From Bdellovibrio reynosensis (GTDB taxonomy: Bacteria; Bdellovibrionota; Bdellovibrionia; Bdellovibrionales; Bdellovibrionaceae), in NCBI RefSeq assembly GCF_022814725.1, contig NZ_CP093442.1:1922001-1986000 (forward strand): 64,000 bases of DNA. Direction: 5' to 3'. Both the position numbers and the translations under genes were made by a program. The notes below the pieces were generated by a model, which was given only the letters and a program-made list of their open reading frames with translations, had not been told where the DNA came from and made no database searches. Below are positions 6,215 through 38,084 of the stretch, piece after piece. Positions within the stretch are counted from its first letter, which is position 1, and each line of letters opens with the position of its first letter.

Positions 6215-7462
6215 TTAGTATTCACCATTCAATGTACAAGATAACAATTTATCCACCGTATCGCCCATCACGTTTTGGAAAGGACCGAAGTGGTTGTACG
6301 AGCGCCCCACCGACATATGCGGACTTACGCAACGTTCAGCTGGAGCTTTTAAGCTGCCACTTGAATTCACGTTATATGGATGCGTATTGTAAGCCTTTAC
6401 TGCATTCACTTGCACCGCAAACATTCCTGTTACTTTCGAAGCCGCACAGAAAGAATTGAAAGTCTGTAAAGAGCTGCCCAGAATGCGGATTAATTCAGAC
6501 TGACTTGCGCTTGTTGAAATACCGCAGCTTGGGTAAACCTGGTTCCACTCACGGATACATGCTTGGATGTTACCACTTGCTGTCGGAGTGAATTGGAACA
6601 CACCAATGTTCAATCTAGAAGCTTCGTCTTGGTATGGATCTTCATAGAAAGCCACACTTGCAGGACGACGGTAACCAGATGGAGCATACTTTTCAGCCAC
6701 TCTTTGTGTACTTGAAGAGTTCGCTGACGTTAACGACTCTAGGTAAGATAAGCACATCATATATTTTGACCAAAGTTTTGAAGCCTTCACGTAACCATCA
6801 CGGTTCCCTGCTAAAGCTTCGCGACGATAGCCGTTCATTTTATCAGCAAAAACGTTCATCTTTTTGATGGTCGCTGCGCCCGGTACATTTTTCCCGCCGT
6901 AAGTTGTATTCAGAGTTGAATTAGTTACGTTGCACAACGGATGCGAAATCAAACTGTTTGGTAAATACGTGTTTACGTCTTTATTTAAACCAAAATAAGA
7001 AGCCACATAACCTAGCTGCGCTTTTGAAGCATGCATTTTTAGTTCTACTGCGTAAGCGATGCGATCCGCGAAACGATCGTTACCATCAAGGCTTGCATCA
7101 CAGCTATCAGTACGATGACCTTTAGAAGCATCACGCACCGGAAGAAGTTCGCGGTAACCCTTGTAAGTCGTATCGACGATGCCACCTACTGGATAAGCCA
7201 CTTCTGTAAATGGGTTAAATCCTTCCGGAGTAAGATCATCAGAGATTGCTGCTGGTTCGCGCGCTGGCGGCGGCGTTGGTGTCGGAGCTGGAGTTGGAGC
7301 AGGGGTCGGCGCGGGAGCCGGTGTGGGTGCGGGAGCCGGGCTTGGAGTCGATGGCGCCTTAGATTCTTGAGGTGGTTTTTTTGCCATCGCAAAGCTAGAG
7401 CTTGCGCACACAGTTGTTAATAAAGCGGCTAAAATGATGTTTGTTCTTTTATGTGTTGTCAT
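6215..7462 (-). CDS. Proline-rich secreted protein with possible lysozyme-like (SLT-type) domain
   Basis: 415 aa. Signal peptide (about residues 1-26), then a Pro/Ala/Thr tract (about residues 35-68, PAPTPAP units) of the kind used to span peptidoglycan. A C-terminal domain holds several cysteines. Within it, YLESLTSAN (Glu242-Ser243) and, 45 residues later, NIGVFQFTP resemble the catalytic ES and the GLMQ-MP motifs of soluble lytic transglycosylases. If this is right, Glu242 would be the acid and the substrate peptidoglycan. The match is remote and may only reflect a shared fold. An AGGAGG sits just 1 nt before the ATG. Confidence 0.6.
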   Translation of the reverse strand: MTTHKRTNIILAALLTTVCASSSFAMAKKPPQESKAPSTPSPAPAPTPAPAPTPAPTPAPTPTPPPAREPAAISDDLTPEGFNPFTEVAYPVGGIVDTTYKGYRELLPVRDASKGHRTDSCDASLDGNDRFADRIAYAVELKMHASKAQLGYVASYFGLNKDVNTYLPNSLISHPLCNVTNSTLNTTYGGKNVPGAATIKKMNVFADKMNGYRREALAGNRDGYVKASKLWSKYMMCLSYLESLTSANSSSTQRVAEKYAPSGYRRPASVAFYEDPYQDEASRLNIGVFQFTPTASGNIQACIREWNQVYPSCGISTSASQSELIRILGSSLQTFNSFCAASKVTGMFAVQVNAVKAYNTHPYNVNSSGSLKAPAERCVSPHMSVGRSYNHFGPFQNVMGDTVDKLLSCTLNGEY

Positions 7463-18672: not shown

Positions 18673-18690
18673 AAAACTCAAAAGCCTCCG

Positions 18691-18735
18691 CCTTCGCTAA
18701 AGCTTCCGCCTCCGCTAAAGCTACGGCGTGACGAG
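18691..18735. repeat. Dispersed intergenic repeat, copy 2 (two units)
   Basis: Two partial units back to back: CCTTCGCTAAAGCTTCCGCC, then TCCGCTAAAGCTACGGCG followed by TGACGAG. Same family as 18008-18033. Confidence 0.6.
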
Positions 18736-34913: not shown

Positions 34914-35747
34914 TTAAGCGATCAATTTCATCGCTTGGTTTGGCATCGTGTTCGCTTGCGCCAATACTGAAGTATTTGAAGCAAGAAGAACTTGGTTACG
35001 AGCCGCTTCAGATGAAGCTTGAGCGATATCAGTATCACGGATACGAGAGTTCGCGGCACTGATGTTTTCATGTTGCACACCCAAGTTATCAACTGTGGAT
35101 TGCAATCTGTTTTGCAAGGCACCCAGAGCTGCGCGGTAACCGTTCACTTGAGATTGAGCGGAGTCGATCGCAGAAAGAGCCTCTTGCGCACCCGTCTTAG
35201 AAGTGAAGTCGAAACCATCAATTCCAAGAGTTGCTGCTGTAGCGTCAGTTTCACCAGCGTTGTATGAAATTCTGTCAGCATCTTCAGAGTTGTTGATACC
35301 AACTTGGAAGTCATACATGTCGCCAGAACCATCTAACAGTTTAGTAGTACCGAAGCGAGTAGTTTGAGTGATACGTTGTGCTTCAGCTTTAAGTAATTGA
35401 ACCTCTTTATCTAGGAAACCACGTTCAGTGTCACCGATAGTGTCAGACGAAGCCTGGATACCCAATTCTCTCATACGAGTAAGAATGTTAGAGATTTCAC
35501 CCAAACCACCTTCAGCTGTTTGAACCATCGAGATACCGTCATTCGCATTTCGTCCCGCTTGGCTTAAAGATCTGATTTGTGATTTTAAATTTTCAGAAAT
35601 TGCTAATCCCGCAGCATCATCAGCAGCTTTGTTGATACGAGAACCAGATGCAAGTTGTTGCATTGATTTTCCGATTTCACGCTGTGAAGTCATCATTGTT
35701 CTTTGCGCGTTGATTGCAGATACGTTTGTTGAAATTCTCATTCCCAT
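34914..35747 (-). CDS. fliC: Flagellin 1
   Basis: 277 aa from the ATG with AAGGAG 8 nt upstream. The upstream in-frame extension is not flagellin-like. The N-terminal D0/D1 (RISTNVSAINAQRTMMTSQR, LASGSRINKAADDAAGLAIS) and C-terminal D1/D0 (STVDNLGVQHENISAANSRI, ending MPNQAMKLIA) domains are complete. The variable D2/D3 region is almost absent, giving a short flagellin. The monomer is secreted unfolded through the flagellar export system with FliS help. It is one of two flagellins here. They share the terminal domains but differ clearly in the centre. Confidence 0.96.
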   Translation of the reverse strand: MGMRISTNVSAINAQRTMMTSQREIGKSMQQLASGSRINKAADDAAGLAISENLKSQIRSLSQAGRNANDGISMVQTAEGGLGEISNILTRMRELGIQASSDTIGDTERGFLDKEVQLLKAEAQRITQTTRFGTTKLLDGSGDMYDFQVGINNSEDADRISYNAGETDATAATLGIDGFDFTSKTGAQEALSAIDSAQSQVNGYRAALGALQNRLQSTVDNLGVQHENISAANSRIRDTDIAQASSEAARNQVLLASNTSVLAQANTMPNQAMKLIA

Positions 35748-36076
35748 GTGGGATCTCCTTAAATATTGGCTCGTCTTATACCTACTTAGACTTCGCCGGT
35801 TAACACGTTGGTGACTCCACTTTGGTCTTGGCTCCCTCAAGCGATTCTTATCAGGCAGTCACTCCTTTTAAGTTTCTCGAGAGCTTCAGACTTTCGTTTC
35901 GTCGTTGCTTCTGACATACCTTTCGGCGAGGTCTGTGAAGCCTTTAGTCGCGTCCTGCATTTCTGAACCAAGGTCCAGGAAAACCTAGACCAAGGTTTTG
36001 AAAAACAGACCAAGATCCCACAAAAACCAAAACCAAAGTCCAGCCCCGACCAACAACCACCCAGCCCAAAACCCAA
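35748..36076. other. Long upstream region of flagellin 1
   Basis: About 330 bp without a credible gene. An open frame of 79 codons on the minus strand is low-complexity and is probably chance. The outer part (35960-36075) is almost free of T on the plus strand. It carries spaced direct repeats and C runs that could make a G-quadruplex on the minus strand. No clean sigma-28 box was found near the flagellin start. Confidence 0.5.
35967..36041 (+). repeat. Four direct repeats ACCAAGRTCC about 21 nt apart
   Basis: ACCAAGGTCC (35967), ACCAAGGTTT (35989), ACCAAGATCC (36009) and ACCAAAGTCC (36032). Spacings are 22, 20 and 23 nt, about two helical turns, as in operator arrays. They lie 220-300 bp upstream of the flagellin 1 start. 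Confidence 0.45.
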
Positions 36077-36111
36077 AGGTGCCTGCTTCTTTTTTGGGTC
36101 TACACTGCATC
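36077..36111 (+). repeat. 35-bp REP-like element, copy A (inverted)
   Basis: Begins AGGTGCCTGCTTC and ends CACTGCATC. It is the exact reverse complement of 36315-36349. It marks one outer edge of the tandem-repeat/transposase island. Confidence 0.8.
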
Positions 36112-36160
36112 AAAAGTATCCCCCGGAGATGCACCGTCCTCTCGAATAGCTGTTTACACT

Positions 36161-36258
36161 ATGAGTGATGAGTGATGAGTGATGAGTGATGAGTGATGAG
36201 TGATGAGTGATGAGTGATGAGTGATGAGTGATGAGTGATGAGTGATGAGTGATGAGTG
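36161..36258. repeat. Perfect tandem repeat, 14 copies of ATGAGTG
   Basis: 98 bp, 14 uninterrupted identical 7-mers with no mismatches. It lies between the two inverted 35-bp elements. The lack of decay points to recent expansion or gene conversion. It is not a CRISPR array because it has no spacers. Confidence 0.95.
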
Positions 36259-36314
36259 AAAATACCTTCGATGTGATCGAAGTAAATCGTTTAGTTAAGA
36301 AGTTGCTTTTCGAT

Positions 36315-36349
36315 GATGCAGTGTAGACCCAAAAAAGAAGCAGGCACCT
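36315..36349 (-). repeat. 35-bp REP-like element, copy B
   Basis: Exact reverse complement of copy A, and 34 of 35 identical to copy C at 37078. Its outer end touches the transposase stop codon (TGA at 36351-36349), so the gene terminates in the repeat. Confidence 0.85.
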
Positions 36350-37023
36350 CAAAGAGGGAAGTCTTCTAATGAAGAAGGCTGTTTGTTCACTGGGCTCAGT
36401 TGAAAAGTCGACTTTTTCAACCCTTTACGAACTTCATCCCACTGCTCTATAGATGGAGCTGTATTTAGCCATTTTAGATTTTCTTCCCGCGTTCGTAAGC
36501 TTCCCCAATTTTCATCTTCTGAGATTGGAATATCCAACCAACTTTCCCCAATCAAACCTTGAATTGACGAGAACGGATAATCTTCAACTTTTTCGCATAG
36601 CCCAGCGGTAACCGGATTTCGGTATAAGTATTTATATGCATGAAGATAGTAAAGTGGAGATCCAATCAATGAGCGATGAAATCTTGAACCATATGTTTGA
36701 TTCAAACGACCACTGAGGAATGTAATCTCCCGACTTGTCTCCCTCATAAAATACCTCATGGCCTCACTAAGGTTAGCATCAGGAGTGCGAACTATTAGAT
36801 GAAAATGATTACTCATTAAAACGAACGCGTGAATTTTTACATTGAAGGCAAAATGCAGGAAATAAAGCTGGCGGGACATGACATCCCAAATGACGTGAAG
36901 ATCGGTTGAGAACCAATCTTTATTAATACATCTAGCAGTGATGTGATATGGAAGTTCAGTATGATTTTCAAAAACCTGGCGACCCATTCTAGGTCTTACA
37001 TGCAAGATCCTTATGATCTTCAA
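36349..37023 (-). CDS. REP-associated tyrosine transposase (RAYT, Y1/HUH)
   Basis: 224 aa with a TTG start. The ATG at 36987, 36 nt further in, is also plausible and begins at a typical RAYT N-terminus, MGRQVFENHTELPYHITARC. The HUH motif is NHFHLIV (His73, His75). The likely catalytic tyrosine is Tyr132 in KYLYRNPVTAGL. RAYTs are single-copy, non-autonomous relatives of IS200/IS605 TnpA that nick REP hairpins and probably spread them. The C-terminal ~60 residues have no known domain. The gene lies between two flagellin genes and is bracketed by 35-bp copies B and C. It appears intact. Confidence 0.9.
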   Translation of the reverse strand: MKIIRILHVRPRMGRQVFENHTELPYHITARCINKDWFSTDLHVIWDVMSRQLYFLHFAFNVKIHAFVLMSNHFHLIVRTPDANLSEAMRYFMRETSREITFLSGRLNQTYGSRFHRSLIGSPLYYLHAYKYLYRNPVTAGLCEKVEDYPFSSIQGLIGESWLDIPISEDENWGSLRTREENLKWLNTAPSIEQWDEVRKGLKKSTFQLSPVNKQPSSLEDFPL

Positions 37024-37077
37024 GTCTCTTTAAATTTGGGATTATCTGCCATTATATCCGGTCTTCATCTCTTCTTT

Positions 37078-37112
37078 GATGCGGTGTAGACCCAAAAAAG
37101 AAGCAGGCACCT
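37078..37112 (-). repeat. 35-bp REP-like element, copy C
   Basis: Same orientation as copy B with a single A/G difference at the sixth base. It lies 55 bp upstream of the transposase start, so B and C flank the gene as direct repeats and A faces them. Confidence 0.85.
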
Positions 37113-37115
37113 AAA

Positions 37116-37142
37116 AAATCCCCGGGAGCGGGTGCCCCCGGG
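37116..37142 (-). terminator. Terminator downstream of flagellin 2
   Basis: CCCCGGG/CCCGGGG stem with a minus-strand ATTTTTT tract, about 120 bp after the flagellin 2 stop. It insulates the transposase gene from the strong flagellin transcript. Confidence 0.8.
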
Positions 37143-37259
37143 GTGGGCTTAAGACGAAGGGTATATGTGGGCGACCCCTCATTCTCGAGAGAAGCTGTAT
37201 CCCATAACAGCCCCCCCGACATTCTGTAAGAATGATAAAGTCTTAGTTTTTTATATTAA

Positions 37260-38084
37260 TTAGATCAGTTTCAAAGCCACGTTCGGGATTTGGTTTGCTT
37301 GCGCAAGAACCGATACCGCCGTGTTCTGAAGGATAGATGCAGAAGCCATCTCTGCTGTTTCTTTTGCGATATCTGTATCACGGATACGAGAGTTCGCAGC
37401 AGATAAGTTTTCATAAGAGATGTCTAAGTTACTAACTGTTGATTCCATTCGTGATTGCATCGCACCGAAACTTGCGCGCAGAGCACTCACTTTAGAGATC
37501 GCATCGTCTACTGACTGCAGGGTCGAACGAGCACCTGATTTATCAGAGACCGAGATCCCATCAATTCCCAACGTACCCGTCGTCGCATCGGCATCGAAGT
37601 CGACCGCAATTACGTTGTCCTCTCCACCGTACGCGCCGACATGGAATTCCATTTTTCCGCCCGTACCATCAAGAAGTTTTGTATTACCGAAAGTTGTAGT
37701 TCTAGCAATACGATCTGCCTCTTCGATTAACATCTGAGCCTCTTGATCGAGGAATCCTCGCTCAACGTCACTCACTGTATCAGAAGCAGCCTGTACACCC
37801 AGTTCTCTAATACGAACCAAGATGTTGGACATTTCATTAAGACCACCCTCACCTACTTGCGAGAATGAAATCGCGTTGTTCGCATTGTTACGAGCAGCAG
37901 AGATACCTCTTAATTGTCCTTTAAAGCTTTCAGAGATTGCCAAGCCGGCAGCGTCGTCGGCGGCATTTACGATACGAGAACCAGACGCCAAAGCTTGTGA
38001 CGCATGTTCTTGTCTTTTTTGTTGTTTACCTAGCACACGTTGTGCTGCGATAGATGCAGTGTTTGTCGCGATTCTTAAGCCCAT
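37260..38084 (-). CDS. fliC: Flagellin 2
   Basis: 274 aa, ATG with GGAGG 5 nt upstream. Terminal domains are complete (RIATNTASIAAQRVLGKQQK, QALASGSRIVNAADDAAGLA, MESTVSNLDISYENLSAANS, end IPNVALKLI). Like flagellin 1 it lacks D2/D3. The N-terminal heptad differs (KRQEHASQAL versus REIGKSMQQL) and so does the centre, so the pair is an old duplication rather than a recent one. A separate transcript is likely, given the terminator and the 1.5 kb between the genes. Confidence 0.96.
   Translation of the reverse strand: MGLRIATNTASIAAQRVLGKQQKRQEHASQALASGSRIVNAADDAAGLAISESFKGQLRGISAARNNANNAISFSQVGEGGLNEMSNILVRIRELGVQAASDTVSDVERGFLDQEAQMLIEEADRIARTTTFGNTKLLDGTGGKMEFHVGAYGGEDNVIAVDFDADATTGTLGIDGISVSDKSGARSTLQSVDDAISKVSALRASFGAMQSRMESTVSNLDISYENLSAANSRIRDTDIAKETAEMASASILQNTAVSVLAQANQIPNVALKLI

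Follow-up and report, generated by a model that had tools for sequence, protein, structure and literature searches.

What does a lone transposase gene do between two flagellin genes, and what ties it to the short repeats that bracket it? The question is raised by a locus in the window, by which we mean the whole stretch of 64,000 nucleotides analysed here; the host is probably a predatory bacterium (Bdellovibrio). The first-pass annotation placed three 35-bp elements, A, B, and C, around the transposase between the two flagellin genes, and their coordinates and strands were confirmed. The features of the locus, in which the repeats are called REPs and the transposase gene RAYT, are:

34914..35747, minus strand: flagellin gene downstream of the cassette
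35921..35946, minus strand: sigma-28-like promoter of the downstream flagellin, TAAA-N15-GCCGAAA, found in 18/18 spacers examined
36077..36112, plus strand: REP copy A, inverted terminal repeat on the 3' side of the cassette
36161..36259, no strand assigned: perfect tandem array (ATGAGTG)14, between A and B
36314..36349, minus strand: REP copy B, an extra, direct copy that has one base in common with the RAYT stop (TGA/GGTGCC)
36352..36987, minus strand: RAYT coding sequence, 212 aa, ATG at 36987, stop TGA at 36349-36351
37077..37112, minus strand: REP copy C, terminal repeat 5' of the RAYT start
37113..37143, minus strand: likely intrinsic terminator of the upstream flagellin, a GC hairpin followed by a T run, adjoining C (read by eye)
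37260..38084, minus strand: flagellin gene upstream of the cassette

A and B are 100% complementary over 36 nt, and A and C (37075-37112) are 97% complementary over 38 nt with a single mismatch, in keeping with the earlier description of the copies as identical or one base apart. It also held that B touches the transposase stop and that C lies just upstream of the start, the end of C being 89 nt from the likely ATG at 36987. This ATG is the likely start because orthologues begin M[G/P/A]R there; the TTG at 37023 called by the ORF finder is an unlikely one. The first-pass annotation made no mention of the 14-copy array between A and B. Elsewhere in the spacer, ∼22-nt periodic repeats (GACCAAGGTCCAG-like) occupy window positions 35967-36043, on the upstream side of the downstream flagellin's sigma-28-like promoter, and similar text is found in other genomes of the genus, some of them without a cassette. 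The window also holds two short tandem repeats with an 18-nt period (7296-7340 and 18681-18722).

The protein is the sole Y1_Tnp match in the 3.58-Mb genome. It scores above the cut-off of the Pfam Y1_Tnp model and matches NCBIfam REP_Tyr_transpos with 67.3 bits (E 1.3e-18), below the curated cut-off of 80. The HUH histidines H61 and H63 and the catalytic Y120 are invariant in 29 sequences, with Y120 aligned to the tyrosine of DYIYINP in 4ER8, a TnpA_REP-hairpin complex and the only solved relative by sequence. An AlphaFold model (pLDDT 90.9) gave 4er8_A as the first-ranked Foldseek match (E 1.5e-8, TMt 0.73), followed by IS608 and ISDra2. Motifs, fold, and flanking REPs agree with the annotation of the gene as a RAYT, and by its sequence and predicted structure the window transposase is an HUH/Tyr RAYT. 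Close orthologue pairs have dN/dS of 0.05-0.07, which marks purifying selection on the gene. When GTDB contigs were scanned once with the protein, a single relative (41%) came back. PADLOC matched the unit to no anti-phage defence family, Rfam matched no element, PLSDB held no plasmid-borne relative of the region, and a literature search on RAYTs and Bdellovibrio, its scope being papers outside subscription, found nothing relevant.

The repeat itself reads GGTGCCTGCTTC-TTTTTT-NGGTCTACANNGCGTYA. Its first 22 nt, with ≤3 mismatches allowed, have 43 matches in the genome and none for a reversed control, so its recurrence is not due to chance. A 35-position sequence model, built from this genome's own copies, gave 48 matches; the 35-mer is therefore abundant, and the outcome in which it is found nowhere else in the genome did not occur. 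The copies are mainly intergenic, with 6 of 30 lying in an ORF of at least 120 aa, whereas 87% of random points in the window do so. The tetranucleotide GTAG, or CTAC on the opposite strand, stands at one fixed expected place in 16/32 copies, and TGTAG is kept in many related cassettes.

Single 35-mers have folding energies of -1.3 to 0 kcal/mol, and no covariation was found for their best internal stem. A hairpin inside the 35-mer was rejected on these grounds, as the first-pass annotation had suspected. Facing pairs, on the other hand, form ∼70-nt hairpins of -28 to -46 kcal/mol. Genome-wide, the REPIN form consists of such facing pairs with 0-9 nt in between, and most copies in the window genome are singlets. 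A hand count of neighbours ≤150 nt apart in ten genomes gave 26 convergent, 0 divergent, and 12 tandem pairs; close inverted copies always face each other. The 35-mer is best read, from sequence and calculated folding, as half of a REPIN and the singlets as solo halves, since single copies are unfolded, facing pairs fold, and close inverted pairs are always convergent. The suggestion that the A-B inverted pair is itself the substrate stands in part: inverted pairs matter, but A-B is not special, REPINs throughout the genome being facing pairs 0-9 nt apart and A and C being the cassette ends. With the palindrome of classical REPs absent, what is kept of the original claim is a RAYT with REPIN-type repeats, not classical REPs.

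A RAYT relative is present in 48 of 66 genomes of the family, and in 15 other genomes of the genus a related RAYT occupies the same flagellin spacer; in one of these, G019, the contig ends and the site is seen from one side, with the downstream flagellin alone visible. In most cassettes one REP precedes the start by ∼110-125 nt and a second, inverted REP is found at or close to the stop; the heads at the two ends are usually the same. The tail of the inverted 3' REP includes the final codons and the stop of most orthologues. The window cassette has A as its inverted 3' repeat, 236 nt past the stop. Judged by this geometry, which is common to the orthologues, A and C are the cassette terminal repeats, and B and the (ATGAGTG)14 array are extras. 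The RAYT gene of G009 is truncated at its N-terminus; that of G008 was rejected as a pseudogene because its premature stop precedes the conserved ATG. In G017 and G024, RAYTs with 64% mutual identity lie ∼250 nt upstream of another flagellin pair (L053/L082 and L061/L085).

The number of REPs follows the presence of the gene. With a model that favours the repeat type of the window genome, and counts from related genomes that are not phylogenetically independent, all 16 genomes with a flagellin-site RAYT have 2-48 matches, and eight genus genomes without one have 0 (six genomes), 1 (one), and 6 (one). Far from being equally common in relatives that lack the RAYT, the 35-mer is nearly absent from 7/8 of them. 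The type of REP also tends to follow the cassette. Heads are mostly GTGAY in G003 and mostly GTTGT in G009 (p 1.5e-4), and mostly CTTCT in G005 and G008 and mostly GGGAC in G011 (p 1e-8); G019-G020 go in the expected direction with few counts (p 0.35, not significant). The p-values serve as a guide only, because the related genomes are few and their REPs are shared by descent and not independent. By sequence counts, two of the three informative comparisons have genome-wide REPs whose head agrees with that of the resident cassette. G009 (L106) also contains REPs with the head GGTTCCCGGTTC, and G006 (L041) was the only genome seen to have a RAYT with that head on its flanks; these REPs are possibly an orphan population.

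We consider it highly probable that the locus is a RAYT-REP system (a REPtron of terminal-inverted-repeat form) with a REPIN as substrate, copying of REPs in trans, replacement of the cassette in situ, and the flagellin spacer as docking site. A selfish IS200-like element of the ordinary sort, lacking a durable tie to the scattered REPs, would share the Y1 fold and the inverted repeats that bound the cassette, and in Foldseek the IS200/IS605 members IS608 and ISDra2 rank after 4ER8. Such an element is, however, hard to reconcile with one copy per genome here, strong purifying selection (dN/dS ∼0.05), terminal 35-mers that lack a stable hairpin, and a REP abundance and head type that follow the RAYT, and we regard this explanation as scarcely credible.

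The RAYT-REP reading includes replacement of the cassette, for which three comparisons of relatives are informative. Between G003 and G009 the non-coding flanks are 98% (left) and 95% (right) identical, the RAYTs 56% identical, and the heads different. Flanks are 88/93% identical in G005-G011 and 88/92% in G008-G011, with RAYTs 59-61% identical and in opposite orientation. G019-G020 share 93% of the left flank, the sole side available as G019 lacks the right one and both assemblies are fragmented, and their RAYTs are 62% identical and again oppositely oriented. Flagellin dS is 0.25 (G003-G009), 0.26-0.28 (G005/G008-G011), and 0.08 (G019-G020), and RAYT dS in the three comparisons is 1.8 or saturated. 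The RAYT alignment rejected the groupings of the flank tree, with p-AU of 0.0002 for G003+G009, 0.0004 for G005+G008+G011, and 0.0002 for G019+G020; the groups were chosen from flank identities and tested after the RAYT tree had been seen. Because flanks and flagellins are near, RAYTs and repeats are divergent, and the trees conflict, these sequence comparisons show that on more than one occasion a divergent cassette took the place of the resident one at this site, despite purifying selection on the gene. Simple inversion was rejected as the source of the orientation differences in the examined pairs, as the genes themselves differ; the RAYT tree has 2-3 orientation changes, little better than shuffles and weak evidence alone. 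G005-G008 were not counted as a further swap, since their grouping survives the AU test (p-AU 0.29), albeit with a flagellin dS of 0.07 and a saturated RAYT dS.

Several routes could have led to the replacements. Divergence does not extend beyond the cassette and its edge. Homologous recombination of the ordinary kind, acting in flanks and flagellins, could have swapped old allelic variants of the cassette, with the RAYT and REP ends uninvolved, and the conserved flagellin genes on each side offer homology for it. In G019-G020 the flank identity declines gradually toward the cassette over 120 nt (63, 73, 80, 90, and 100% per 30 nt), which speaks for such exchange, and G005-G008 show somewhat the same. 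Identity stays at 93-100% up to ∼30 nt from the cassette, however, in G003-G009 and to the right of the cassette in G005-G011. Nor was a donor tract seen next to the cassette in G003-G009, G019-G020, and G005-G008, because the adjoining 100 nt still have the sister species as nearest relative; in G011, the nearest relatives of the proximal and distal flank differ. We take homologous recombination to be a strong contender that falls a little short of being probable. Another route starts from an ancestral tandem of two or more cassettes, of which lineages retained different ones. REP-REP recombination could precisely delete one cassette, and a further RAYT of this family lies elsewhere in some genomes (G006), but two cassettes were found in 0/16 occupied spacers examined, and recent loss of different copies would be needed in several sister pairs, which makes a tandem origin unlikely. 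Replacement directed by the REP ends, exchanging whole cassettes at the flagellin docking site and each time re-programming which REP population grows, is a possibility that we put forward tentatively.

The spacer itself appears permissive. The cassette adjoins the likely terminator of the upstream flagellin, and this hairpin was found in both occupied and RAYT-free spacers; toward the downstream flagellin the cassette keeps a distance of over 100 nt from the sigma-28-like promoter, on its upstream side. In G012, G015, G017, and G022 (L093-L096) the same spacer is home to a Y1 transposase of another family, which has GGGTATCGGTCAT inverted repeats; transposases of this type are multicopy in G015 and G017 (9-10 matches). 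The spacer of G016 holds a gene for an 834-aa radical SAM protein (L092 338-2842), and that genome has six REP-like matches with no RAYT found. Spacers of ∼600-640 nt in G004, G013, and G024 have neither a RAYT nor such another gene. A clean empty site was sought in these three, but the sequence that fills them bears no relation to the cassette junctions and so gave no readable target site. In strain HD100 one locus tag lies between fliC1 and fliC2 (Bd0604, Bd0606; PMC2791853), to which the flagellin pair of the window may correspond.

That the location could alter flagellin copy or expression had been raised in the first-pass annotation. An effect of this kind, with the unit regulating or reshaping its neighbours, would fit the conserved location between flagellins and the RAYTs beside another flagellin pair in G017 and G024. 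It is unsupported, since the unit sits outside the flagellin transcription signals, past the likely terminator and upstream of the conserved promoter, and the spacer tolerates both orientations, other genes, or no cassette at all; we hold it to be very unlikely.

If the RAYT-REP reading is right, the RAYT would be a single-strand-DNA HUH/Tyr nuclease that recognises 35-nt REPs, in which a variable outer head of 12-13 nt is followed by a T5-6 tract and then by an inner tail, often with GTAG. Its working substrate would most likely be the REPIN, two facing 35-mers in a ∼70-nt hairpin. Copying or moving REPs in trans at a low rate could have given rise to the ∼48 copies here, and the flagellin spacer would be a tolerated docking site between a terminator and a promoter. 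Replacement may proceed by exchange directed by the REP ends, or through recombination with endpoints close to the edges of the cassette. RAYT activity, and its specificity for REPs with its own head, we infer from the sequence patterns.

Several known systems resemble this one. TnpA_REP and REPs have been shown to co-evolve, and single-stranded REPs to be recognised (Corneloup et al.). The RAYT/TnpA_REP systems of E. coli and Pseudomonas (PMC2817692, PMC3116915, PMC8266576) likewise have a single-copy, REP-flanked HUH/Tyr gene, and their REPINs are hairpin-forming REP doublets, mainly intergenic and with an abundance tied to RAYT presence. In contrast to theirs, the single REP here has no palindrome, GTAG is internal and not fixed, copies number tens and not hundreds, and the cassette is replaced in situ. 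Di Nocera et al. 2013 (PMC3733652) described RAYT-like genes with terminal inverted repeats at their borders (TIRtron/TIRYT), and the accessible part of their paper reports long repeats of this kind in moderately abundant families of singles and dimers. The window cassette agrees in that its terminal inverted repeats bound a RAYT gene and form a repeat family; Bdellovibrio is absent from the main text of that paper, and its accessible part describes no cassette replacement. Judged against the accessible literature, the system matches RAYT-REPIN systems in protein, arrangement, and abundance, and differs in the lack of a REP palindrome and in the cassette replacement, which is new.

These two differences bear on how RAYTs and their repeats evolve. 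Where a REP lacks a palindrome of its own, the hairpin that is recognised may need an inverted partner to supply it. Bertels and co-workers (PMC8049555) describe RAYTs as transposases that are present in single copy, pass down vertically, and show no significant horizontal transfer; vertical inheritance, which does not strictly define them, is not what was found at the flagellin site. Nunvar et al. 2013 (PMC3686654) reported changes of REP class at syntenic RAYTs, with older classes left behind, by a mechanism that was unknown. Their 'orthoswitch' was inferred to be mutation of the flanking REPs, whereas in the present case a different RAYT gene takes over, sometimes in reversed orientation, and cassette replacement is a candidate mechanism for it. 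Same-spot cassette swaps in sister species are natural experiments that ask whether the REP population of a genome is set by its own RAYT. If replacement directed by the REP ends is true, RAYT-REP pairs would be interchangeable alleles and not vertically inherited domesticated genes.
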